64,000 nt of DNA, from the NCBI RefSeq assembly GCF_041361465.1, contig NZ_JBGKAC010000001.1, positions 1,488,001-1,552,000 on the forward strand, written 5' to 3'. Position numbers and translations under genes: made by a program. The notes beneath the pieces are model-generated. The model searched no databases and was not told where the DNA came from. It worked only from the letters and a program-made list of their open reading frames with translations. This document shows positions 35,571 through 48,331 of the stretch, piece by piece. Source of the DNA: Halobaculum sp. MBLA0143 (GTDB lineage Archaea > Halobacteriota > Halobacteria > Halobacteriales > Haloferacaceae). How positions within the stretch are numbered: the stretch's first letter is position 1; each line of letters opens with the position of its first letter.

Positions 35571-37253
35571 TCACTCGGCGACCGACCGGTCCGGGACGGT
35601 CAGGGTGACGACGCTCCCGACGCCGTCGCGCTCGGCGAACGACAGTTCGCCGCCGAGTCGTCGCACGGCCAGCCAGACGAACCACAGCCCGAGCCCGCTG
35701 CCGTGTCGCAGCGGTTCCTCGCCCGCGACGAGCACTTCCCGTTCGCGGGCCGGGATCCCCGGCCCCTCGTCGTGGACGGCGACCGCGACGCCCGACGCCG
35801 TGGCCGCCACGACCACCTCGACCGTCGGTGTCGGGTCGTCGGCGTGCTCCAGCCCGTTCTCGACGAGCTCCGCCAACGCGGTCGACAGCAGCTCCGGGTC
35901 GGTCACCAGTTCGTCCGGCGAGCCGGCGGCCCGGACCCGGACCGTGCCGGCGTGGTCGTCGAACCGCGCCGCGACGCCGTCGGCGACCGCGACCGGCTCC
36001 GCCGGCTCGCGCACGGACGGCCGAGAGAACAGTCGCTCCATCTCCGCGACGGTCGCGCCGGTGTCGGCCAGCCCGGCCGCGAGGTCCCGAATCCGTCGGC
36101 GGTGTGTGGCCGCTCGGTCCGGCGGGTCGTCTCCCGCCCGCGAACCCCCTCGCTCCCCGGGTTCGCCGTCGAACTCGTCGTCGTCGAACTCGTCGTCGTC
36201 GAACTCGTCGTCGTCGAGCGCCTCGGCGAACGCCTGGACCGCGTCCAGGTCGTTGCGGAGGTTGTGTCTGAGCACCCGGCCGAGCACGGCGAGTCGTCGT
36301 TCGGCGGTCACCCGCTCGGTCACGTCGCCGAAGAGGTACGTCCGGCCGACGACCGTCTCGCGGTCGTCTCGCACGCGGGTTGCAGAGACCGCCAGCTCCC
36401 GACGACCGTCCGGCGTGTCGACCACGACCGTCTCTCGGTCGGGGTTGTCGGGGTCCGGGAGTGGGGCGTCGACCACGGCCGCCACCGAGCGACCGAAGGC
36501 GTCGTCGCCCAGATCGAAGACGCGACGCGCGGCGGCGTTGGCGTCCGACAGTCGACCGGCGCGGTCCGCGACGATTGCGGCCTCGTCCATCGCGGCCAAC
36601 AGCCGTTCGCGGGCGAGGTGATCCGTCCCCGGCGCACGGTCGAGCGCCCCGTCGACGACGGCGACCGCGAGACAGCCGGCGGTCGCCAGACTCAGTCCCG
36701 CGCTGGCGACCGCTCCCCCGTCTGGTATCAACACGGCGGCGAACAGGGCGACGCTCGTCCCACAGGCCCCGAGCAGCCCGGCCGCGCGGCGGCGCGAGAG
36801 GCCGCCGTCGTCCGTGGCCCGCCACAACAACAGCGCGCTGTAGGCGGTGGCGACGAACAACAACACCCACCCCAGTTCCAGAAACAACCGGACCAAGCCG
36901 GTCAGCTCGAACAGGACTCCGGGGAGCTGCCAGCCGACGGCGACAACGGCGAGTAGGGCGGTCCACCGCGGTCCGAGCGCCGGCCCGCGGCCGGTGTACG
37001 CCGCCGCGAAGCCGAGCCAGAGCGGCGGGAGCGCTCGCCACACCACCGCGAACAGCCGAACACTCGCCGGCGAGACGTCGGAGGCGACGAGGACGACGAC
37101 TTGGAGCGACGGCTGTGCGGCAGTCAGGAAGGCGATGGCCGACAGCGCGCCCGCACCCGGGACCGACCGCCGCCAGGCGGCGAGTCCACCGACGACCGAG
37201 AGCCCGGCCACGGCGACCACGTTGACGACCACGAGCGGATCGACCCCCGTCAC
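35571..37253 (-). CDS. Membrane sensor histidine kinase (7TM-PAS-HisKA-like-HATPase)
   Basis: 560 residues from GTG 37253. The first ~205 residues form seven transmembrane helices of the archaeal 7TM sensor type. A PAS domain (about 215-330) follows, then the phospho-acceptor region VLRHNLRNDLDAVQAF, and a HATPase_c domain with N-box ELVENGLEHA, G1 DEGPGIP and G2 GSGLGLWFV. A DDDEF repeat (three copies) sits just after the acceptor helix. It should autophosphorylate and signal to a response regulator; the HalX regulator at 42184 is a candidate partner. Its start overlaps the stop of the upstream kinase-like gene (GTGA), so both are made together. Confidence 0.9.
   Translation of the reverse strand: MTGVDPLVVVNVVAVAGLSVVGGLAAWRRSVPGAGALSAIAFLTAAQPSLQVVVLVASDVSPASVRLFAVVWRALPPLWLGFAAAYTGRGPALGPRWTALLAVVAVGWQLPGVLFELTGLVRLFLELGWVLLFVATAYSALLLWRATDDGGLSRRRAAGLLGACGTSVALFAAVLIPDGGAVASAGLSLATAGCLAVAVVDGALDRAPGTDHLARERLLAAMDEAAIVADRAGRLSDANAAARRVFDLGDDAFGRSVAAVVDAPLPDPDNPDRETVVVDTPDGRRELAVSATRVRDDRETVVGRTYLFGDVTERVTAERRLAVLGRVLRHNLRNDLDAVQAFAEALDDDEFDDDEFDDDEFDGEPGERGGSRAGDDPPDRAATHRRRIRDLAAGLADTGATVAEMERLFSRPSVREPAEPVAVADGVAARFDDHAGTVRVRAAGSPDELVTDPELLSTALAELVENGLEHADDPTPTVEVVVAATASGVAVAVHDEGPGIPAREREVLVAGEEPLRHGSGLGLWFVWLAVRRLGGELSFAERDGVGSVVTLTVPDRSVAE
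36171..36215. repeat. 15-bp coding repeat, three copies
   Basis: GAACTCGTCGTCGTC at 36171, 36186 and 36201, encoding DDDEF three times inside the linker of the 35571-37253 kinase. Confidence 0.95.
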
Positions 37254-38998
37254 GTGCTACCCCTCCGTGCCGGAACGGTGATTCGTCCGTCACGCACCGG
37301 GACGGACAGGGTGACCGCCCAGCCGCCGGCGTCGGACGGATCCGTCGGGTCGTCCGTCCCAACCTCGCCCGCACTCGACCCGTCGTCCGTTCCGACGCCC
37401 GTCCGGCCGTGTTCTGTGACGCTCCCGCCGAGAGTGTCGGCGACGATCCGGGCCACCGCGACCGCCGCGTCGGGGTCGATCGCGTCGACACTCGTCGTGT
37501 CGACATCCGGCGCGTCGACATCCGCCGCGTCGACACCCGCCGCGTCCGTCGGGCGGTCCCCCGCGACTCGGATCTCGACGCCGTCGGCCGTCGTCGTGGC
37601 CGTCACCGTCGCTCCGGTCGTCGCCTCCGTCAGCGACTCGACGGCCGTCCGGACGAGCGGCGCGTCGGCAGCAGCGACGGTGACGCCGTCGTCGACCGCC
37701 GACGTGTCCGTGTCGTCGACCGCCGACGTGTCCGTCCAGTCGACCGCCGACGTGTCCGTCCAGTCGACCGCCGACGTGTCCGTCCAGTCGACGCTCGCCT
37801 CCGCGAGCAGCGTCGACAGCCCCACGGGACCGTCTGCACCGCCGTCTGCGAGCGCCCGTTCCAGGCTCCGGACCCGCCCGACGACCGTCGTCAGCGTGGT
37901 TGCCGTCTCCTCCGGGTCCGCGTGGGGCGCCGACTGCGTCCGTCTCCTCGAAGCCGTCTCTGCGACGGCACTCATCCGGTCGTGGACCGTGTCCGCCAAC
38001 AGCTGTGTGACGAGCCGGAGACGACGCTCCCGCTGTCGGCGGTCGGTCACGTCTCGACAGACGAACAACCGGCCGGCACGGTCGCCGCGGTCGTCCGTGA
38101 CCGTCGTGACGGAGACGGCGAGGTGTCGCCCGGCGTCCGTCCGCGTCCGGAAGTCCGCGCCACGCCCGGCGACCAACGACGGCGCGACGGCGGACAACGG
38201 CTCGCCGACGGCCGCCGCTGTCGGCCCGAACACGGACTCGGCGGTCGTGTTGAGATCTCTGATCACGCCGTCGTCGTCGGCGACGACGACCGCCGCCGAC
38301 ATCTCGGCGATCGCTCGGTCACGCCCGACTAGACTCGCCGCCGGCACCCGTTCGAACGGATCGTACCGAGCGACGATCACCCACAGCAGCCCGACGGAGC
38401 CGGCGAGCGCCGTCGAGAGAGCGACGACCCCCGGCACGATGCTGGAGGCAGTTGGGAGCAGCGCCACGACGGCGAGCCCGAACCCCTGGCCGGTCGGCAC
38501 GGACGTGTCGCCGACGGACCCCCAGGCGACCGTGACGGCGACGACGGCGACGATCCCTCTGGCGATCAGGAGGCCGGAGGCGCCCGCGACCGAGACGACC
38601 GTCTCCGGCGTCGGCCCGCCGGTCCGGGTGACGAACGCCCCCGCGGCCGTCAGACAGACGAACGCCGTCGCCAGCCCGACCTGGAGCGGTCTCCCGGCGA
38701 GCCGGTCACGACCAGTGTACCGGAGCACGAACCGGAGCCACGGCACGCTGACGGCCGCCAGCAGCCCCGTCACGGCCCGGTTCGCGATCTCGTCGACTAC
38801 CGGCGTGTGCCAAGCCACGTCGGCGGGCAGGGCGGCGACACCGACCGCCAGCGCGGTCGCCGCGACCACGGCGACCACCGGCCGGAGTCCGCGAGCGACG
38901 GACGACTCCGAGCGGTCGAGCCGCCACACGAGTCCCGCGGCTGCGAGCGTCGTCAAGCCGGCGACCGCAGCCTCCGGCGGGAGCCGTGTCGGGCGCAT
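37250..38998 (-). CDS. Degenerate membrane histidine kinase-like protein
   Basis: 582 residues from the ATG at 38998. The build resembles its downstream neighbour: seven helices (1-215), a PAS domain (~230-340) ending FVCRDVTDRRQRERR, then a helix containing TVHDRMSAVAE where the phospho-acceptor should be. The ATPase half is reduced. The N-box Asn is missing (AVESLTEATTGA), no clear G-boxes are seen, and repeats VDWTDTSA (x3) and VDDTDTSA plus a VDAADVDAPDVD stretch occupy the region. It probably cannot bind ATP. It may act as a sensor partner of the coupled kinase at 35571 (4-nt overlap). Confidence 0.75.
   Translation of the reverse strand: MRPTRLPPEAAVAGLTTLAAAGLVWRLDRSESSVARGLRPVVAVVAATALAVGVAALPADVAWHTPVVDEIANRAVTGLLAAVSVPWLRFVLRYTGRDRLAGRPLQVGLATAFVCLTAAGAFVTRTGGPTPETVVSVAGASGLLIARGIVAVVAVTVAWGSVGDTSVPTGQGFGLAVVALLPTASSIVPGVVALSTALAGSVGLLWVIVARYDPFERVPAASLVGRDRAIAEMSAAVVVADDDGVIRDLNTTAESVFGPTAAAVGEPLSAVAPSLVAGRGADFRTRTDAGRHLAVSVTTVTDDRGDRAGRLFVCRDVTDRRQRERRLRLVTQLLADTVHDRMSAVAETASRRRTQSAPHADPEETATTLTTVVGRVRSLERALADGGADGPVGLSTLLAEASVDWTDTSAVDWTDTSAVDWTDTSAVDDTDTSAVDDGVTVAAADAPLVRTAVESLTEATTGATVTATTTADGVEIRVAGDRPTDAAGVDAADVDAPDVDTTSVDAIDPDAAVAVARIVADTLGGSVTEHGRTGVGTDDGSSAGEVGTDDPTDPSDAGGWAVTLSVPVRDGRITVPARRGST
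37691..37786. repeat. 24-bp coding repeat, four copies
   Basis: Units at 37691, 37715, 37739 and 37763, type GTCGACCGCCGACGTGTCCG plus 4 bases. Encodes the (V-D-W/D-T-D-T-S-A) repeats in the degenerate kinase. Confidence 0.95.
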
Positions 38999-39504
38999 CT
39001 TCGTGGTACTGTCTGTCGGTTGCGGTGAATTCCGAAGTAATCTTCGCTCCGGAGGGGAGCGACGGTAGTTGGAGGACCGAACGCCGGGAACCACGGCGTG
39101 AGGTCGGGTCGAAACGACAGGGGGGGGGAGGGAGTGCGTCGTGGCGGCTGACGGCCGGACCGGTGTGGGGGGTCCGAGGTCCGTCGACCAGCCGCCTCGG
39201 CGCGATTAGGCGTACAGCCCACCCACACCTATCACCCGTTGCTCGATGCGCAGACACCCCGTCGAGCGCCGAGTCTGCACTCGCAGACACGGGGGTGTGT
39301 CTGCACTGTTGGACTGTCGCCGTCGACGCCGACTCTGGACACACAGTAGCTGGGATTAATTGTCCGGAGTGTCTAATCGTTCGGTGTGCCAACTCGTGTG
39401 TCCGTCTGCGGGTCCGTGTCCCACCCCCGCTCGCTACGGGAAGTGTCGTTACCAGAGCCAGCCCTCCCTCACCGTCGCCGGGACTGGAGGGAGTGCGTGT
39501 GACA
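38999..39504. other. 506-bp divergent control region of two kinase operons
   Basis: No coding sequence. It holds a G-run (39121-39128), four half-sites GCAGAC/GTCTGC at 39250-39304, and an AT-rich ATTAAT at 39355-39360 that may be the TATA box of the rightward operon, about 145 nt before its ATG at 39505. Confidence 0.6.
39250..39304. promoter_or_regulatory. Cluster of GTCTGC/GCAGAC half-sites with central dyad
   Basis: GCAGAC 39250-39255, GTCTGC 39273-39278, GCAGAC 39283-39288 and GTCTGC 39299-39304. The middle two form the dyad GTCTGC-ACTC-GCAGAC. The same dyad occurs at 42851-42866. Placed ~50-105 bp upstream of a likely TATA box, it looks like an activator site. Confidence 0.55.
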
Positions 39505-40569
39505 ATGGCAGATAGCACTCCCGGCGACGGGGCCGGCGGCAAGGCACCGCCCGACCGCGAACAGGGGGTCGCAGAGTACACGGAGCCGGCGATCGCGTAT
39601 CGGGAGGCGGACGACGACGGAGAGGCAGTCGTCGTCGACACGAACGCCGCCTTCGAGGCCGTGGCCACCGGCGACGGCGGCAGTCTCGCCGGACTCCTGG
39701 ACGACTGTCTCCCCGACCGAGACGGTGAGGCGGTCGCCGGGCGGCTCGTCGCCGGCGACCGGACGGAACCGGTCGCGTTCCACGACCCCGACGCCAGTTT
39801 CCTCCCGCGAGTAGTCGTTCGCCGCGACACGGTGTGTCACCTCCTGTTCGTCGAACTCGAGCCCGTCGCCGACGCCGGGGACACGGACGGCGACGAGCCA
39901 GTGGCCGAGACGGACGCGCCGGCCGTCGGCGACTCCGAGGCGGTCGCACACGTCGTGAGCCACGACCTCCGGAACCCGTTGGACGTGGCGGGCGCCCACC
40001 TCGAGCTCGCGCGCGACGAACACGACGGCACCCACCTCCGTCGGGTTGCAGAGGCACACGAGCGGATGGAACAGATAATCAGAGACGTGCTGACACTCGC
40101 GCGGGGCGAGCGGGCGATCGACGCCTCCGAGGGGGTCGACATGGGCGCGGTCGTAGAGACCGCCTGGGAGAGCGTCGCGGCCGACGACGTGACCGTGACC
40201 GTCGGCGACGTGCCGACGACGACCGCCGACCGTCCGCGGGTGGAGCGACTCGTCGAGAACCTGCTGCGCAACGCCGTCGACCACGCGGGCGACACGCCGA
40301 CGGTGGAGGCGGGCGGACTGCCGGACGACGCCGGCTTCTACGTCGCCGACGACGGGGACGGCATCTCGGCGACGGCCCGCGACGCGGTGTTCGAGCCGGG
40401 GTACACGGAGAGCGGCAGCGGCACGGGTCTCGGCCTGGCGATCGTCAGGCGGATCGCCGCCGCCCACGGCTGGACGGTGAAGATCACGGACAGCGAGACG
40501 GGCGGCGCCCGCGTGGAAGTGTGGTTCGACGACCCCGAAGGACACACGACGGAGGGGACCACACAGTGA
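39505..40569 (+). CDS. Soluble sensor histidine kinase
   Basis: 354 residues from the ATG at 39505. A variable N-terminal domain (~1-125, weakly PAS-like) and an acidic linker precede the phospho-acceptor helix VAHVVSHDLRNPLDVAGAHL. The ATPase domain follows with N-box VENLLRNAVDHA, G1 DDGDGIS and G2 GSGTGLGLAIV. No membrane segments, so it senses a cytoplasmic cue. Its stop overlaps the GTG of the Bat-like regulator gene (GTGA), so the kinase and regulator are translated together and probably act in one pathway. The upstream region carries the GTCTGC dyad cluster. Confidence 0.9.
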   Translation: MADSTPGDGAGGKAPPDREQGVAEYTEPAIAYREADDDGEAVVVDTNAAFEAVATGDGGSLAGLLDDCLPDRDGEAVAGRLVAGDRTEPVAFHDPDASFLPRVVVRRDTVCHLLFVELEPVADAGDTDGDEPVAETDAPAVGDSEAVAHVVSHDLRNPLDVAGAHLELARDEHDGTHLRRVAEAHERMEQIIRDVLTLARGERAIDASEGVDMGAVVETAWESVAADDVTVTVGDVPTTTADRPRVERLVENLLRNAVDHAGDTPTVEAGGLPDDAGFYVADDGDGISATARDAVFEPGYTESGSGTGLGLAIVRRIAAAHGWTVKITDSETGGARVEVWFDDPEGHTTEGTTQ

Positions 40570-42176
40570 CCGACGACCCCACACGAACCGACGGTGGGAC
40601 GGAGACGGACCCCACCACGAGCGCGGGCCGCCCGGCGCTACGGCTCGACGCCTGCCCGTACGGCGTGGTGATCGTCGACGACGGCACCGTCGACGCGGTC
40701 AACGACATCGCCGCGGACCTGTTCGACGTCGACGCCGACGACGCCGTCGGCGCGTCCGTCGAGTCGGTCACGCCGGTGTCTGTCGAGTCGACGCTGCCGT
40801 CGTTGTTCGCCGGCGGCGACCCGACGACCGACCACGAGTTCGAGGAGTACTACCCGGAGCTGGAGCGGTGGCTGTCCGTGACAGTCGTCCCGACGGACGG
40901 CGGCTGTGCGGTGTACGTCGACGACGTGACCGACCGCGTCACCGCCGAGCGGGAGACGGAACGGCTCCGCGAGGAGTTGGACGACGTCGTCGGCGTGACG
41001 GACCTGTTGTCGGCAGTGTTGGTCGAGTTGGTGGACGCGACGGACCGCGAGGCGGTCGCAGAGACCATCGTCCGGACGCTGGGCGAGCGCGAGGAGTACG
41101 AGTTCGCCTGGCTGGGCGAACGGGAGCCGGGCGGCGACCGGCTCCGCGTCCGGGCGGCCGCCGGGGACACCGGGAACCTGTTCGAACAGGTGGAAGATCA
41201 CCTCGGCGAGATCCCGGAACGGACGGCCGTGGAACGCGACGAGGCGCGAGTGATCCAACCGATCACGGAGTCGGAGGCGGTGCCGGCGCCGGTGCGGCAG
41301 GCGGCGTTCGCCGACGGCGTCCAGTCGTTCGTCGCCGTGCCGCTCACGTACGGCGGCACCGCCTACGGCGTCGTCGGCGTGTACGCCGCCGGGAAAGACG
41401 CCTTCTCCGAGCGGGCCCGCGAGGCGTTCGAGACCCTGGGGTCGATGGCCGGCTTCGCCGTCAACGCCGCCCGCAACCAGAACCTCCTGTTCGCCGACAC
41501 GATCACGGAGTTCACCGTCGACGTGATGGACGCCACGGCGCCGTTCGTCGGGCTCGCCCGCGAGTTCGACGCGACGTTCGACGTGGACGGCACCGTCCCA
41601 CAGGGACGCGACCGCGTGGTGGCGTACCTCACGACGGAGGGCCCCTCGGCGACGGCCGTCGCCGACTCGCTCGCCGACCACGACGAGGTCCGGGACGTGC
41701 GTGTCGTGACGGACACGGAGACGACCGCCCGGCTGGAGGTGACGCTCGGCGAGGGAACGCCGCTCCAGACGGTGGCGACGCTGGGCGCGTCCGTCGGGCG
41801 GGCGACGTACTCGGAGGGGCGAGGCCGGATCGGCGTCGAACTCCCGTCGGGCGAAGAGGTGCGACAGGTGGGTGAGGCGCTGCGGCGGCAGTTCGACGCC
41901 GACACGGTGTCGAAGGTGCAGCGCGACCGCTCGGTCACGACCGCCGGCGACATGCGGTCGGAGCTGGGCAGCGATCTGACGGAGCGACAGGAGACGGCGC
42001 TGCGGACGGCCTACCTCGCGGGCTACTTCGAGTCACCCCGCGACAGCACGGCCGAAGAGGTGGGTGAGGCGTTGGGGATCACCGGCTCGACGCTGTTGCA
42101 CCACCTCCGGACGGGACAACGGAAGCTGTTGGACATCTACTTCGACGGCGAAGACACCGGGCGCCGCGGGGACTGA
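40566..42176 (+). CDS. Bat-like regulator: PAS - GAF - HTH_10
   Basis: 536 residues from GTG 40566. Residues ~25-125 are a PAS domain (PYGVVIVDDGTVDAVND), ~145-310 a GAF domain (EYEFAWLGEREPGGDRLRV; VAVPLTYGGTAYGVVGVYA), ~315-460 the bacterioopsin-activator GAF/HTH-associated domain. ~480-530 is HTH_10 (LTERQETALRTAYLAGYFES, then STAEEVGEALGITGSTLLHH). Such proteins sense light, redox or oxygen and activate transcription in haloarchaea. No opsin gene is near. Coupled to the kinase upstream. Confidence 0.9.
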   Translation: MTDDPTRTDGGTETDPTTSAGRPALRLDACPYGVVIVDDGTVDAVNDIAADLFDVDADDAVGASVESVTPVSVESTLPSLFAGGDPTTDHEFEEYYPELERWLSVTVVPTDGGCAVYVDDVTDRVTAERETERLREELDDVVGVTDLLSAVLVELVDATDREAVAETIVRTLGEREEYEFAWLGEREPGGDRLRVRAAAGDTGNLFEQVEDHLGEIPERTAVERDEARVIQPITESEAVPAPVRQAAFADGVQSFVAVPLTYGGTAYGVVGVYAAGKDAFSERAREAFETLGSMAGFAVNAARNQNLLFADTITEFTVDVMDATAPFVGLAREFDATFDVDGTVPQGRDRVVAYLTTEGPSATAVADSLADHDEVRDVRVVTDTETTARLEVTLGEGTPLQTVATLGASVGRATYSEGRGRIGVELPSGEEVRQVGEALRRQFDADTVSKVQRDRSVTTAGDMRSELGSDLTERQETALRTAYLAGYFESPRDSTAEEVGEALGITGSTLLHHLRTGQRKLLDIYFDGEDTGRRGD

Positions 42177-42183
42177 GCGTCGC

Positions 42184-42771
42184 CTACGCCTCCTCGCGCT
42201 CGATCTCGGCGAAGTTCTCCACGACGGACGTGTCCTCGCCGAGCAGCCGGCTGACGCGCTCCTCTAGCCGTTCGACGCGCGCCGCCAGCTCGCGGTACTC
42301 CTCGCGGTCGTCGCGGTGCTCCTCGGGGATCTCCGCCGCCAGGACGGCCCGCTTCGACTCGGCGCTGAAGAACTCCCCCAGCGTCTCGTACGCCAGCACG
42401 CGCCGTTGGTGTTCGACGGCCGCGTGGAGGTCCTCCCGGTTCATCGGCTTACAGAGGTACTCGTCGAACGGCATCTCTACCACCCCGAAGTCCGGGTCCA
42501 CCGCCGTCACCATGATGATCCGGCCGTCGAACCCGCGGTCCCGCAGCTCCTCCAACACCTCGTCGCCGGACATCCCCGGCATGTGTCGGTCGAGCAACAC
42601 GAGATCGACGGTCGACTCCGAGGCGATCTCCAGCGCCTGTTTGCCGGTGTAGGCCGTCTCCGTCTCACACACACCTTGGAGGCGCAACGCGTACGCGTCT
42701 GCCACCTCCTTCTCGTCGTCGACGACGAGTGCACGAATCTCTGCCGTCGAATCGACAGTCACCAGAGCCAT
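42184..42771 (-). CDS. HalX-type response regulator
   Basis: 195 residues from the ATG at 42771 (an in-frame ATG nine codons further up is possible). The receiver domain carries the acidic pair VVDDE, the phospho-acceptor Asp61 in LVLLDRHMPGMSG, and Lys108 in CKPM. The C-terminal HalX domain (~135-185: YETLGEFFSAESKRAVL, EEYRELAARVERLEERV) is a helical module found only in haloarchaeal regulators. No DNA-binding domain, so it should act through protein contacts. Ends 8 bp after the convergent Bat-like gene; likely partner of one of the kinases. Confidence 0.9.
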   Translation of the reverse strand: MALVTVDSTAEIRALVVDDEKEVADAYALRLQGVCETETAYTGKQALEIASESTVDLVLLDRHMPGMSGDEVLEELRDRGFDGRIIMVTAVDPDFGVVEMPFDEYLCKPMNREDLHAAVEHQRRVLAYETLGEFFSAESKRAVLAAEIPEEHRDDREEYRELAARVERLEERVSRLLGEDTSVVENFAEIEREEA

Positions 42772-42850
42772 TTTGCCGTTCGTAACGAACACAGCCACCT
42801 AACTCCACGGGGTCGCCGCCGACCCCTCGGACAGTACAGGGACCGGTCGT

Positions 42851-42866
42851 GTCTGCATACGCAGAC
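42851..42866. promoter_or_regulatory. Dyad GTCTGC-ATAC-GCAGAC between halX and the winged-helix gene
   Basis: Perfect 6-bp inverted arms with a 4-nt spacer, the same as 39273-39288. It lies 80 nt from the HalX start and 73 nt from the winged-helix gene start, in the middle of their divergent control region. Confidence 0.6.
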
Positions 42867-42925
42867 AACCCCCCGGCGGTCGACTCCAGATACTGGGCTG
42901 GAGTGTACGTAGGGATGTAGGTCTC

Positions 42926-42938: not shown

Positions 42939-43316
42939 ATGTCCGAGAGTGCTGTCAGTTCCCGCGTCGCCGAGGCGGCCGCACGACCGACCGCAGACGA
43001 CGGTACGGAGGTCGCGACGGCCGGCCTAGAGCTTCTGAGTGACGACTGCGCCCGGTCGATCCTGTCGACGGTCGCCAGAGAGCCCGTGCCGGCTCGCACG
43101 ATCTCCGAACGGCTCGACGTGTCGCGCACGACCGTCTACCGCCGGCTCGACCGGCTGGAGGAGGCCGGGTTGTTGACCGCGAACGTGGAGTACGACCCGG
43201 ACGGCCACCACCGGAAGGTGTTCCGGTTGGCCGTCGACGAACTCGCCGTCACGGTCGGCCCGGACGGCGTCTCCGTCGAGTGTCACGACGACGACGACTC
43301 CGAGAGCCGTTCGTAG
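42939..43316 (+). CDS. Winged-helix transcriptional regulator
   Basis: 125 residues. The helix-turn-helix ARTISERLDVSRTTVYRRLDRL (residues ~51-72) is followed by a wing (LLTANVEYDPDGHHRKVFRL), matching the MarR/ArsR/PadR-like haloarchaeal winged-helix regulators. The N-terminus is a polar extension, the C-terminus acidic. It may bind the GTCTGC dyad that lies in its own control region. Its 3' end overlaps the convergent cobT gene by 34 nt. Confidence 0.85.
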   Translation: MSESAVSSRVAEAAARPTADDGTEVATAGLELLSDDCARSILSTVAREPVPARTISERLDVSRTTVYRRLDRLEEAGLLTANVEYDPDGHHRKVFRLAVDELAVTVGPDGVSVECHDDDDSESRS

Positions 43317-44350
43317 ACGCGTTCGACCCGGCTCCGGACGGCCGCCAGCGCGCCCGCCTCGTCTGCGACCGCCAGCGCACCGCCGGCGCCGACGCCCTCC
43401 TTCCCCGCTCCCGCGGCGTACCCCGCCGCGACCGGGTGGTCACCCAACTCCGCCAGTGCCGGGTCCGTGACTGTCCACGCCAGCGACAGCGCCGTCCCGA
43501 GCCGGGCCAGGTCCGCCGTCTCGTCGGCCGCGACGTACGCGGTCGTCGCCGCCCGCAGCGGCGTCTCGACGCCCAGCCCACGCAGCAGTGCCGCGACGGC
43601 CGCCATCTGTGTCCCACCGCCCAGGACGACTGTCGTGTCCGTGGCCGTGGCGCCGCGGACGACGCCGGCGACGGCCGGTAACACCGGGTCGCCGACGGCC
43701 CGAACGGCCGCCAACGGCCGGCCGGCGAGGTCGCCGGGCGCGATGCCGCTGGCCGCGAGCGCGTCCGCGACCACCGTGTTCTTCAGCGCGGTCGGGTTGT
43801 CCGGCAGCGACGAGGAGACGGCCGTCGGCCGGCCCAGCGCCCGCAGCACTGCCATCGCCGTCGTCGTCCCGCCGGGCACGGTCTCGCCGATCACGACCCT
43901 GTCGGCCGACAGCGACCGTCCGACCGCCCGTGCTCGGTCGTAGGTTCCGGCCGCGTCCGGCACCGCTACGGCTTCGCGGATGTCTGCTCCCGAGCGGTCG
44001 GCGACACGTCTGGTCTGGGTCGCCGGCGACGCGGCGAGCCCGGCGTCGACCACGAGCGTTTCCAGTCCCAGCGTCTCCACGACCGCTCGCGACAACACCG
44101 CCGGCGTCGGACAGCCGTTCGGGCCGACCGGGAGCGTCGCCGCCGACCGGACGCGCCCGCGAGTCAGAATCTCCGTGTCGGCGACCGGAGTGTGGACCGC
44201 CGCCGCGGGGTCGCCGCCGGCGGCGCTGATCCCCTCGATCTCGCCGGTCGCCGTCGTGCCCGCGACCACGACCAACGCCGTGTCCGCCGTGTCGCCGTCC
44301 CGTGGCTCCGCGAGGCCGTCGTCGACGCTCGACGACCCCCTGCGGGTCAC
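43283..44350 (-). CDS. cobT: Nicotinate mononucleotide-dependent phosphoribosyltransferase, archaeal CobT
   Basis: 355 residues from GTG 44350, 1 nt after the cobA stop. This is the archaeal form of CobT, which activates the lower-ligand base (such as dimethylbenzimidazole) to its alpha-ribotide for cobamide assembly. Glycine motifs LPVGPNGCPTPAVL, VIGETVPGGTTTAMAVL and VVLGGGTQMAA are visible. Last gene of the cobamide cluster. An ATG 33 nt further up would overlap cobA and is less likely. Confidence 0.85.
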   Translation of the reverse strand: MTRRGSSSVDDGLAEPRDGDTADTALVVVAGTTATGEIEGISAAGGDPAAAVHTPVADTEILTRGRVRSAATLPVGPNGCPTPAVLSRAVVETLGLETLVVDAGLAASPATQTRRVADRSGADIREAVAVPDAAGTYDRARAVGRSLSADRVVIGETVPGGTTTAMAVLRALGRPTAVSSSLPDNPTALKNTVVADALAASGIAPGDLAGRPLAAVRAVGDPVLPAVAGVVRGATATDTTVVLGGGTQMAAVAALLRGLGVETPLRAATTAYVAADETADLARLGTALSLAWTVTDPALAELGDHPVAAGYAAGAGKEGVGAGGALAVADEAGALAAVRSRVERVYERLSESSSS

Positions 44351-44351
44351 G

Positions 44352-45080
44352 TCAGAACTCCGTCCCCTTCCGGGCGCGGCCACCCTCGTCGAAGTGGTGG
44401 CGTCGTTTCTCGACGTGCGTGACGAGATCCGCCTCGCTCGTCGCGTACGTCGGCTCCTCGTGGCCGCCGGTCAACACGAGCTCCAGCTGTTCGGGGGCTC
44501 GTTCGATCAACTCGACCACGTCGTCGGGGTCGATCAGCCCCCGGTTGGCGGCGTACAGGATCTCGTCGAGGATCAGGAGGTGGACGCCCGCCTCCGGCGG
44601 GGCGTCGAGCGCGACCTGGGTCGTCGGGTCGCCGTCGGCGGCGGCGTCGAGCAGTTCACGAGTGCGCTCCAGTCCCGCCGCGGCGCGGGCCTCGTGGGCG
44701 TCCTCGTCGGTGCCGTCCAGCGAGCCGTGCCAGCCGTAGTGACCGGAGTTCTCGTAGCTGAACCCCGACAACGCCGCGATGGCGTTGTACTCGCCGCGCA
44801 CGTCCTCGACGCTCGCGGCCCCGCCTTTCATGAACTGGAGGAGGTGGACGCGGTAGCCGTGACCGGCCGCCCGCATCCCCATCCCCATCGCGGCCGTCGT
44901 CTTCCCCTTGCCACCACCCCACCACACCTGGACGCGCCCGAACGCCTCCGGGGCGGCCGGGGTGATCGGCTGTGGCTCGACTGGCCCCGACGGCGCGTCT
45001 GCGTCCTGCTCTCCGTCTGCCGTCTCGTTCGTCGCTCCGTTCGACTCCGTCGCCGTCTCGTCGTGTGTGTCGTCTGTCAT
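44352..45080 (-). CDS. cobA: Cob(I)alamin/corrinoid adenosyltransferase (CobA/BtuR type)
   Basis: 242 residues from the ATG at 45080. An acidic extension (~1-45) precedes VQVWWGGGKGKTTAAMG (P-loop) and the family's LLQFMKGG, LLILDEILYAANRGL and VLTGGHEEP motifs. It adds the 5'-deoxyadenosyl group from ATP to reduced corrinoids. Its start region is a near-copy of the 35 bp before it. Sits between cbiZ and cobT. Confidence 0.93.
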   Translation of the reverse strand: MTDDTHDETATESNGATNETADGEQDADAPSGPVEPQPITPAAPEAFGRVQVWWGGGKGKTTAAMGMGMRAAGHGYRVHLLQFMKGGAASVEDVRGEYNAIAALSGFSYENSGHYGWHGSLDGTDEDAHEARAAAGLERTRELLDAAADGDPTTQVALDAPPEAGVHLLILDEILYAANRGLIDPDDVVELIERAPEQLELVLTGGHEEPTYATSEADLVTHVEKRRHHFDEGGRARKGTEF

Positions 45081-45114
45081 GTTGTGTCGTCGGTGTCGTG
45101 TGTGTCGTCTGTTA
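45061..45114. repeat. 35-bp-period duplication at the cbiZ/cobA junction
   Basis: TCGTGTGTGTCGTCTGT occurs at 45061-45077 and 45096-45112. On the minus strand, one copy carries the cobA ATG and first codons; the other carries the cbiZ stop (TAA) in place of the ATG. Confidence 0.85.
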
Positions 45115-45924
45115 TACTGTGTGATCGGTGTCGCTCCAGGCGTCGTCGCTGCGCGGGTCGAACGCGGTTGCGCGCTCGTCCGTGACGACACCGTAGTCGG
45201 CGTCGGCAACGGCGGTCGGCGGGCTCGCGTCCGCGTAGCGGGCCGACACGGTCGCCGTCACGGCCCGACGGACACACGCCCTGGCGGCGGCGCCGACCGT
45301 CGTCGCCGCGCCCGCGAACGACGCCGGCTCTCCGTCCGTCGCGGTGCCGACGATCACCGCGTCCGTCGTCGTCCCCGTGAACCCCGTCCGGGCAAGCAGC
45401 GTCGCCGTTTTCGCCTCCACGACCGTCGTCAGCAGCTCCGCCAGCACCCCGTCGTCCAACGCCCGGGTCGTCGCCACGACGACGTTCACCGTCCCGTCGT
45501 GGCGAGGGTGATCGTCGGTCGTCGTGCTGTCGTCCGACGTCGGTGACGAGGTCGTCGTCCCCGGGTCGTCGTCCGGCGTCGACCGAGTCGGCGCGTCGTC
45601 CGCTCGTTCGTCGTCGACTGCCAGCACCGCGGGGTTCGACACGCCGGCCGTCGCGTACGCGGCGACCGGGCCGTGTCGCGCCCCGCGGACGTGCCGCATC
45701 GCCACGCCGGTGAGGAGCCCGGGGCCGTCCGCGTCGAACCCCACGCGTCGCCGTCGCTCCCGGAGGTACGCCCGGAGGTCCGTCCGGTCGAACCCGGTCG
45801 GGACGGTGACGTTGTACGCCGCCGGCGCGTCGCGGTAGCCGCCGCCGAAGCCGGTCGACAGCCACCGCGTGTCCGGTCGCCGGAGGCGGAACACCTCCTC
45901 CCGCACCTCACTCTCGAACGGCAC
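45112..45924 (-). CDS. cbiZ: Adenosylcobinamide amidohydrolase
   Basis: 270 residues. CbiZ cleaves the aminopropanol chain of adenosylcobinamide to give adenosylcobyric acid, which archaea and some bacteria use to salvage incomplete corrinoids. Characteristic stretches are WLSTGFGGGYRDAPAAYN near the N-terminus and RTGFTGTTTDAVIVGTA and YADASPPTA in the C-terminal half. A ~40-residue low-complexity insert (DDAPTRSTPDDDP, TTTSSPTSDD) lies around 110-150 and is unusual for the family. Its start overlaps the cobD stop by 17 nt. Confidence 0.88.
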   Translation of the reverse strand: MPFESEVREEVFRLRRPDTRWLSTGFGGGYRDAPAAYNVTVPTGFDRTDLRAYLRERRRRVGFDADGPGLLTGVAMRHVRGARHGPVAAYATAGVSNPAVLAVDDERADDAPTRSTPDDDPGTTTSSPTSDDSTTTDDHPRHDGTVNVVVATTRALDDGVLAELLTTVVEAKTATLLARTGFTGTTTDAVIVGTATDGEPASFAGAATTVGAAARACVRRAVTATVSARYADASPPTAVADADYGVVTDERATAFDPRSDDAWSDTDHTV

Positions 45925-46924
45925 GCACCACCTCCAACAACCGGTCGTTCTCGGCCGGGCGCCGGACCGCGACTCTGACGTGGCTGTCCAGCCGGCGGAA
46001 CGTCGTCGCGTCCCGGACGGCGACGCCCCGCTCGCGGGTCGCCGCGACGAAGTCGGCGACGGACTGCTCGCCCACGTCGAACGTCAGGAACGGTGCCCGA
46101 GAGTCGACCACGTCGAACCACTCCGACAACGCCGCCGCGAGCCGCGCACGCTCGTCGACCACCCGGTCGCGCGTCTCCCGGACGAACTCCCGTTGCCGGA
46201 GACAGTGAGTGCCGACCGCCAGCGCCGGCGTCCCGAGGTTCCAGGTCCGTCGGCTCCCGCGCAGCGCCTCGCCCAGTTCCCCCGTCGCGACCGCGTAGCC
46301 CGCACGAATCCCGGGGAGGCCGTACAGCTTCGTCAGCGCCCGCGCGACCACCACGCCGTCCGTCCCCGAGAGCGACGGCCGGTCGCGGAACCCCAGGAAC
46401 GCCTCGTCTGCCAGCAACGGCGTGTCGGCGGCGCGACACCGACGGGCGAACGCCTCCAGTTCCGTCAGTTCGTAGCCCGTGCCGGTGGGGTTGTTCGGCG
46501 TGCACACCACTGCGAGCGCGTGGTCGGACGGGTCCGCGTCGGTGACGGTCTCCGCCGGGTGGAACACCGGTTCGCCGCCCTGGAGCCGCACCTCGCGGGC
46601 GTACTCGCCGAAGCTCGGCGCCGGAACGAGCACGCTGTCGCCGGGCTCGACCGCCAGCGCGACGGTCCGTCTGATCGCCGCCAGCCCACCGGGCGTCGGG
46701 ACCACTGCCCCGGGGTCACAGTCGACCGCCGACGCCGCCGCCTCGCGGTAGTCGGCCGGCGGCTCCGCCGGGTAGCTCCGTGCGTCGTCGAACGCCGCGC
46801 GGTACGCCGCCTCCGTCCCGGGCGGCACCGCCGGGTTCGTGTTCGCCGAGAAGTCCAGCAGTTCCGGGTCGTCCGTCGAGCCGTGTGGTTCCCTATCGAG
46901 ACGGCCCGCGGCGTCTCGTCTCAC
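45908..46924 (-). CDS. cobD: L-threonine-O-3-phosphate decarboxylase (CobD/CobC, PLP)
   Basis: 338 residues from GTG 46924 (RRDAAGRLDREPHGSTDD). Fold type I PLP enzyme of the histidinol-phosphate aminotransferase group. LDFSANTNPAVPP is the CobD N-terminal signature, followed by TPGGLAAIRR, VCTPNNPTGTG, DEAFLGF and the PLP-lysine ALTKLYGLPGIRAGY. It makes (R)-1-amino-2-propanol phosphate for the nucleotide loop, used by CbiB. An ATG is absent nearby, so the GTG was chosen. Flanked by cobY and cbiZ in the same direction. Confidence 0.87.
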   Translation of the reverse strand: MRRDAAGRLDREPHGSTDDPELLDFSANTNPAVPPGTEAAYRAAFDDARSYPAEPPADYREAAASAVDCDPGAVVPTPGGLAAIRRTVALAVEPGDSVLVPAPSFGEYAREVRLQGGEPVFHPAETVTDADPSDHALAVVCTPNNPTGTGYELTELEAFARRCRAADTPLLADEAFLGFRDRPSLSGTDGVVVARALTKLYGLPGIRAGYAVATGELGEALRGSRRTWNLGTPALAVGTHCLRQREFVRETRDRVVDERARLAAALSEWFDVVDSRAPFLTFDVGEQSVADFVAATRERGVAVRDATTFRRLDSHVRVAVRRPAENDRLLEVVRAVRE

Positions 46925-46970
46925 GGTGCACCCTCCGTCGTCGTGCCGTGTTCCGTCGTCGTGTCGTGGA

Positions 46971-47597
46971 TCACGTCTCTGCACCTCGCTGTCGTTCCGC
47001 GAGCAGTCGCGCCGCGACGCGCCGGTCCCGCGAGCGGTTGACGTTCACCGCCAGCCGGTCGTCCGCACGGACGAGTCGCCGGTCCGAGCCGTCCGGCTCG
47101 CCGACGACGTTCACCCCCGTCGGCGCGAGCGAGCGTCCGTCGGGCGCGAACGTCGTGTCCAGAGTCGCTCCCAGCGCCCGGACGCGGTCCGCAGGGACAC
47201 AGACGGACAGTGAGGGAGCAGTGCCGTCGGCCTCGGACGCGACACGCTCGTAGGCCGTCACGACCGTCTCGACGGCCTCGCCGTCGAGCAACGGCAGGTC
47301 GGCCGCGACCGTCAGCGCCGGCCGCGAGACCGCCGCGAGCGCGTCGTCCAGGTCCGCGACGTACCCCTCGCCGGCCGTCTCGACGACGGTCGAGGCTGCC
47401 TCGCGCTCGCGGAGGTGTGCCCGCGTCGCCGGCGTGTGCGGCGACACGGCGGCGACGACGCGGTCGACGCCGGCCGCGGCGACGAGCGCCTCGACCACGC
47501 GATCGACCATCGGTCGGTCCCCGACGGCGACGAGTGGCTTCTCCGTCGCCGTCGCCAAGCGAGTGCCGCGCCCGCCACACATCACGACAGCGTCCAC
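46971..47597 (-). CDS. cobY: GTP:adenosylcobinamide-phosphate guanylyltransferase, archaeal CobY
   Basis: 208 residues from GTG 47597 (DAVVMCGGRGTRLATATEKP). The MCGGRGTRL nucleotidyltransferase motif and VAADLPLLDGEAVETV match CobY, the archaeal replacement for CobU. It transfers GMP to adenosylcobinamide phosphate. Downstream is cobD; its start overlaps the cobS stop by 16 nt. Confidence 0.88.
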   Translation of the reverse strand: MDAVVMCGGRGTRLATATEKPLVAVGDRPMVDRVVEALVAAAGVDRVVAAVSPHTPATRAHLREREAASTVVETAGEGYVADLDDALAAVSRPALTVAADLPLLDGEAVETVVTAYERVASEADGTAPSLSVCVPADRVRALGATLDTTFAPDGRSLAPTGVNVVGEPDGSDRRLVRADDRLAVNVNRSRDRRVAARLLAERQRGAET

Positions 47598-48331
47598 GCC
47601 ACCACCCCCGCGTGGATCGCAACGAGCCGCGTCAGTTCGTTCGCGGCCCCGAACACGTCGCCGCTCACGCCGTCGAGCGTGCGCCGGGCCCACCACAGCA
47701 GCGCGCCGGCGACGACCGCCCCCGTGGGGACGGCGACCAGCGTCGCCGCCGGCGCGGTCCACGACAGGGCCGTCGCCGGCGCGGCCGCGACCACGACCGG
47801 TCCGAGGTCGCGGGCGTCCGTCGTCGCCGTCAACGCCGACGCCAGCCCCTCGTGGGTGGCCGTCCCGAGACAGACGAGCGTCGCCATCGCGGTCTTGGCG
47901 GCCACCTCGCTCGCGACGACCACCGCGACGGCCGTCCGGACCGGCAGCGACCCCAGCGACAGCCCGGCCGCGAACAGCCCGCCGACGACGACCGTCAGCG
48001 CCAACGCCCCGCCGGCACCCAGGTCGCTGTCCCGCATCACCGACCGTCGTCGCTCCGGGTCGCCGTGGACCGCCGCGGCGTCACCCAGGTCCGCGACGCC
48101 GTCGGCGTGCGTCGGGCCAGTGAGGAGGTACGTCGCCACGACGAAGACGGTCGCGACGGTCGCGTCCGGTCCGGGGAGGAGCGTCACCGTCGCCAGGAGC
48201 CCCCCCAACAGCCACCCGGCCAACGGGAACGCGACCGGACGGTCGCCGAACGCCCGCCAGGCGACCTCCGACTGCCCGACCGGCAGTCGGGAGAGGAACC
48301 CCACCGCGCCGCGGACGGCCGTCAGGGCCAC
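47582..48331 (-). CDS. cobS: Adenosylcobinamide-GDP ribazoletransferase (cobalamin synthase)
   Basis: 249 residues from GTG 48331 (ALTAVRGAVGFLSRLPVG). An integral membrane enzyme with six or so helices. The catalytic GPTHADGVADLGDA (residues ~70-83) and GDPERRRSVMRDSDLGAGG are the Asp-rich CobS motifs. It joins the lower-ligand ribazole to adenosylcobinamide-GDP at the membrane. Overlaps both cbiB (10 nt) and cobY (16 nt), indicating tight coupling. Confidence 0.9.
   Translation of the reverse strand: MALTAVRGAVGFLSRLPVGQSEVAWRAFGDRPVAFPLAGWLLGGLLATVTLLPGPDATVATVFVVATYLLTGPTHADGVADLGDAAAVHGDPERRRSVMRDSDLGAGGALALTVVVGGLFAAGLSLGSLPVRTAVAVVVASEVAAKTAMATLVCLGTATHEGLASALTATTDARDLGPVVVAAAPATALSWTAPAATLVAVPTGAVVAGALLWWARRTLDGVSGDVFGAANELTRLVAIHAGVVAWTLS

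Follow-up and report, generated by a model that had tools for sequence, protein, structure and literature searches.

A symmetric dyad as probable operator of a kinase, Bat-like, HalX and winged-helix signalling module in haloarchaea

The window, by which we mean the whole 64-kb stretch of DNA that was analysed, carries a signalling module of four genes. A histidine kinase with the Pfam domains HisKA and HATPase_c (KIN, 39505..40569, plus strand) is followed on the same strand by a Bat-like regulator (40566..42176), for which Pfam gives the architecture PAS-GAF-BAT-HTH_10. Its BAT (PF15915) and HTH_10 (PF04967) domains were detected with 121.7 and 60.4 bits, respectively, both above the Pfam cut-off, and the HTH_10 cut-off is exceeded by nine loci in the genome. 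A search for PDB relatives of the BAT-HTH_10 part gave only insignificant MarR-like matches. According to the available text of a survey of archaeal two-component systems (PMC5847659) the typical Bat architecture is REC-PAS-GAF-BAT-HTH_10, with a REC domain that in some Bat-like proteins has diverged or been replaced, and at the N-terminus of the protein described here Pfam found no REC domain but PAS_4 and GAF only. The third gene encodes a response regulator of the REC-HalX type (42184..42771, minus strand, start inferred from the sequence; Pfam Response_reg 70.9 bits and HalX 53.0 bits) and is divergent from the fourth, which encodes a winged-helix regulator assigned by Pfam as HTH_20-like and called wHTH in the following (42939..43316, plus strand).

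The module is flanked by further genes. Two sensor kinases on the minus strand (37250-39094 and 35571-37253) show in-frame amino-acid repeats, VDWTDTSA in the first and DDDEF in the second. A HisKA_7TM-PAS kinase without a recognisable HisKA domain often adjoins the module (four loci, and also two more), and the reading frame at 35571-37253 resembles it. On the other side a group of cobalamin genes (43283-47762, minus strand), namely CobT-like, a cobA adenosyltransferase, a CbiS/CbiZ-like hydrolase, CobD-like and CobY-like, runs convergently to the wHTH gene, and CobY, CobD, CbiZ and CobA also adjoin the module in the congener G195.

An exact motif scan found the dyad GTCTGC-N4-GCAGAC twice in the window, neither copy being assigned to a strand: GTCTGC-ACTC-GCAGAC at 39273-39288, 5' of the kinase-Bat operon, and GTCTGC-ATAC-GCAGAC at 42851-42866 in the HalX/wHTH intergenic region, which we name site A. 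The earlier note had described two dyads that differ only in their spacer, with two more half-sites around the first of them, and all of this could be confirmed (spacers ACTC vs ATAC, GCAGAC at 39250 and GTCTGC at 39299). These two copies are also the only exact ones in the 3.58 Mb genome; the exact motif is thus not scattered genome-wide, an outcome that by the earlier note would have refuted its reading. In the window the two exact copies stand against none across 100 dinucleotide shuffles. With up to two mismatches allowed, the window count of 6 equals the chance level of 6.1, and therefore the exact form alone is informative; degenerate genome-wide scans with two mismatches returned chance numbers only. 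Composition, taken from the 22 one-mismatch sites found genome-wide, predicts about 0.6 exact dyads in the genome and a probability of about 0.125 for two or more, and thus the total of two is near chance and insignificant by itself. Twelve of the 13 one-mismatch sites that were examined lie within long reading frames of high GC3, the remaining one being ambiguous. The case for the dyad rests on its placement, as two promoters of one module carry it at a distance of 3.6 kb, and on its conservation in congeners.

Three elements had been overlooked in the earlier note, namely those at 39240-39255 and 39333-39348 and a second site 32 bp 3' of the dyad at 42851. In the kinase promoter, distal site 1 TGCTCGATGCGCAGAC (39240..39255, reading GTCTGCGCATCGAGCA on the minus strand, to which it is assigned) contains the half-site at 39250, and its GCAGAC half is retained in G195, whereas site 3 GTCTGCACTGTTGGAC (39299..39314, plus strand) contains the half-site at 39299. 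Closest to the promoter lies a diverged upstream activating sequence (UAS), CTCTGGACACACAGTA (39333..39348, plus strand), which adjoins the TATA-like box GATTAATT of the kinase-Bat operon (39354..39361, plus strand) at a fixed offset. The block TCTGGACACACAG (with -N-A) beside this box is conserved in all three congeners. Ownership of the array around 39273 by the divergent kinase pair HK2-HK1 (39094-35571) was also considered and rejected, because G195 keeps the array although the sequence upstream of the array there does not resemble HK2. In the HalX/wHTH promoter, site B ACTCCAGATACTGGGC (42883..42898, plus strand) follows 32 bp 3' of site A, and its CTCC-GATA core is conserved in the congeners at this distance. 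Control of the adjacent cobalamin genes by the dyad was rejected as well, since these genes converge on the wHTH gene and are not accompanied by an exact dyad.

Conservation within the genus, which is represented by four genomes in our comparison set, was followed at both promoters. At the position of site A we found GTCTGCGTATGCAGAC in G195 and CTCTGCGTGAGCAGAC, with one mismatch, in G197. The kinase promoter of G195 has GTCTGCACTCACAGAC at the position of the 39273 dyad and the exact dyad GTCTGCGTGTGCAGAC at the position of site 3, and upstream of the G197 kinase the exact GTCTGCGTGTGCAGAC is present together with GTCTGCACTGTTAGAC, the latter corresponding to site 3. Both congeners thus retain the dyad or one-mismatch forms of it at the same promoters while spacers and flanks drift, and the half-sites are retained at an identity of 60-68% between our genome and G195 over the promoter regions. 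A chance encounter of two unrelated GC-rich palindromes would agree with the number of exact copies expected from composition, but both copies belong to the promoters of one module, have been kept in two congeners despite diverged spacers and are linked to an element found throughout the order, as described below; as conservation already contradicts chance, we regard such an encounter as extremely improbable.

The arrangement of kinase, Bat-HTH_10, REC-HalX and wHTH genes recurs in many haloarchaeal families. Outside the genus the same promoters bear a related but less symmetric element, GTCTGYATA-G/C-CTAGAC, of which GTCTGCATAGCTAGAC from a HalX/wHTH promoter is an example and which is usually present there in two copies, so that inspection of the orthologous promoters revealed either the dyad or its ancestral form. 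Sites chosen by hand in HalX/wHTH promoters of other genera only served to build a matrix, which was then applied to the kinase promoters, for which the gene starts in other genomes are approximate, as they were estimated from alignments. At a threshold of at least 13 bits it matched 27 of 63 kinase upstream regions vs 16 of 1114 background windows, and 25 of the 27 matches at kinase loci are on the strand of the gene. A TATA-like sequence (CTAAG, TTTAG or TTAAA) follows the kinase element at a fixed offset, which is common to 20-odd orthologous promoters. The kinase promoter in the window retains this geometry with CTCTGGACACACAGTA at 39333 and GATTAATT at 39354, the offset from the UAS to TTAA being equal to that of the canonical element in other genomes. 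In 24 of 30 orthologous cases the wHTH promoters show two copies exactly 32 bp apart, a distance of three helical turns, and in genomes with strong pairs at this promoter the kinase promoter often has no element that can be recognised. Tandem wHTH paralogues were observed beside the module at five loci, several of them with the element between both genes.

The element stays with the kinase and wHTH genes in rearranged modules, and the distribution of the pattern TCTGNATANYTAG shows how closely it follows the module as a whole. In ten module-bearing genomes 11 of its 12 matches are located at the module, and in another set of 25 genomes, 22 of which bear the module, this holds for about 20 of 36, several of the off-module matches preceding further wHTH homologues or kinases or being located at exporters. 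The 25 genomes without the module gave six matches to the pattern and none to the core form TCTG[CT]ATA[GC]CTAG. The element is almost private to the module, and its conservation at both places lends good support to the idea of the earlier note that one regulator is common to the kinase/Bat and HalX/wHTH promoters.

A sister copy of the module is present in the same genome. This module A, located at about 2095.2-2098.5 kb (L109, G000:C1:2091500-2101500), has the kinase, Bat-like and HalX genes in the same order, and its Bat-like protein is 51% identical to that of the window, which we call module B. Both are neighbours in the Bat protein tree (support 89, not starred). The kinase promoter of module A carries TCTGTGTAGTTAG, the sole exact match of that type in the genome, and its HalX gene is preceded by two weaker sites 32 bp apart. 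No wHTH gene was found beside module A at this locus; repetitive GPPHDP-like reading frames occupy its place. The recognition helices differ as well, being APTLLYHLR in module A and GSTLLHHLR in module B, as do the operators, with the ancestral TCTGTGTAGTTAG type in A and GTCTGC-N4-GCAGAC in B. As the sister module keeps the ancestral element, the symmetric dyad in B is best taken as a derived, symmetrised form of it, which would have arisen in a duplicated copy of the module within the genus when a site of the ancestral GTCTGYATAGCTAGAC type became GTCTGC-N4-GCAGAC. Because the operator of B changed and A kept the ancestral form, the two circuits are probably insulated from each other.

As to the protein that binds the dyad, the earlier note had named the Bat-like HTH_10 protein or the wHTH protein. 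We favour the former as the predicted binder and rank the latter lower, for four reasons: two promoters of module A retain the element although no wHTH gene was found adjacent to the module, no motif match is near a related wHTH gene (G000:C1:342783), module-less genomes are without the core element, and a residue of the Bat-like recognition helix co-varies with a base of the motif. This residue, Ser508, is residue 2 of the helix, which starts at 507 in the AlphaFold2 model (pLDDT near 90). With Ser at this position base 6 of the motif is C in 18 cases, T in four, G in three and A in one, and with Pro it is T in 30, C in two, G in seven and A in one. For the wHTH sites alone Fisher's test gave 0.001 with kinship ignored, and residue 508 ranks third among all Bat columns by mutual information. 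The Ser/Pro changes fall mostly in clades, with five changes on the tree, and of three independent pairs up to two fit the association and none contradicts it, which is not significant. Since kinship confounds the comparison and independent changes are too few, we take this co-variation as a lead and not as proof.

If instead the wHTH protein (42939) were a dimeric autorepressor acting on the dyad and also repressing the kinase-Bat operon, it would be in keeping with the regularity of the element, which is highest at the wHTH promoters with their pairs at 32 bp, with its presence at five loci where the wHTH gene has been relocated and the element has travelled along, and with the extra copies preceding wHTH homologues in other genomes. 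Besides the element of module A and the related gene at 342783, however, this role is contradicted by the wHTH helix residue before the TxY motif, which fails to separate C from T sites, and by the UAS, whose place 5' of the TATA-like box is that of an activator, and we consider it unlikely. Binding by the HalX response regulator or by another HTH_10 protein encoded at the nine loci mentioned above appears very unlikely. A helix-turn-helix has been suggested for HalX, but its DNA binding is undocumented in the available text of the survey (PMC5847659), and the element persists at two loci (L128 and L129) whose retrieved sequence revealed no HalX gene; a further point against this reading is the missing core element in module-less genomes.

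With the Bat-like protein as predicted binder, we propose with a probability of roughly two in three that the dyad is the operator (UAS) of a haloarchaeal signalling module that is self-contained and regulates itself, as the promoters of the module share the element, which is conserved among orthologues and rare elsewhere. The Bat-like HTH_10 activator would bind the dyad as a dimer and, placed beside a weak TATA-like box, might recruit or stabilise TBP and TFB as basal factors. A signal relayed by the kinase and REC-HalX would probably activate the Bat-like protein, which would then raise its own operon as well as the HalX and wHTH genes and in this way amplify the module, the small wHTH regulator being the raised output of the circuit.

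Further targets may exist outside the module. In another genus a pair of elements 32 bp apart lies before an MMPL exporter that has a 7TM kinase as neighbour (L295 2501-2545), a pair 30 bp apart precedes a MacB/FtsX ABC exporter (L297 2588-2630), and elsewhere the element also precedes a gene pair for a wHTH protein and a Zn-alcohol dehydrogenase. In our genome the palindrome CGTGTCTCTGTATGCAGACACG (L310 1501-1516; G000:C1:1390896) is located about 76 bp before the gene of a twin-arginine-type (Tat) lipoprotein with a DUF4097 Toastrack domain, a possible third target of the module, and the repeated site GTCTGCACTGTGAGAC and GACTGCACTGTGAGAC, the copies being 43 bp apart (L315 1501-1516; G000:C2:100854), lies 5' of a 70-aa membrane ORF followed by thiC, with a PAS histidine kinase on the other side. 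According to the gene caller the CGTGTCTCTGTATGCAGACACG site falls within a weak reading frame, and for this reason both sites are given as candidates only. These additional targets weakly suggest an envelope-related response. It is a tentative idea, and on balance a doubtful one, that cross-talk between A and B is prevented by a joint change of the HTH_10 helix (Ser/Pro508 and its neighbours) and of the operator (GTCTGC-N4-GCAGAC vs TCTGTGTAGTTAG), and that at the same time the circuit controls an envelope-stress regulon with the Toastrack lipoprotein here and the MMPL and MacB/FtsX exporters in other genera.

HTH_10 regulators are present in many copies in nearly all haloarchaea. In the literature on these regulators, as far as it was available, the Bat/bop UAS is the only HTH_10 operator described as experimentally verified. 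The element described here would be a second, order-wide candidate with an exact geometry, consisting of a 16-bp site, a pair spacing of 32 bp and a fixed TATA offset, and comes with a predicted binder and a predicted contact residue; the two diverged paralogous circuits form a natural pair within a single genome. With this knowledge, one could begin to assign a function to the common but unexplained module of kinase, Bat, HalX and wHTH genes.

Compared with known systems, the module has a typical REC-HalX protein like those surveyed in archaeal two-component systems, where response-regulator and HTH genes are often neighbours and HalX and Bat proteins are described; the available text of this survey names neither a cis-element or operator nor a module of kinase, Bat, HalX and wHTH genes (PMC5847659). 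Module A of the same genome resembles module B in gene order, in having the element at both promoters and in the 32-bp site pair, and differs from it by the adjacent wHTH gene, which was not found in A, by the ancestral element and by the recognition helix. The Bat protein of Halobacterium salinarum, with GAF, PAS and HTH domains, acts at several co-regulated promoters via a UAS close to their TATA boxes (PMC1447603, PMC1502140, PMC3184054). In contrast to this regulon, the targets here are the signalling module and not bop, brp and crtB1, and the Bat-like protein has no detected REC. A place of the dyad module within the bop/retinal regulon was rejected, as no convincing matrix match was found 5' of 30 brp/blh-type genes, with one weak match of 11.3 bits at a single locus. 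What both share is the arrangement, with a Bat-family protein and a site directly 5' of a TATA-like box at a fixed spacing, which in 20-odd kinase promoters marks the element as a predicted activator site.
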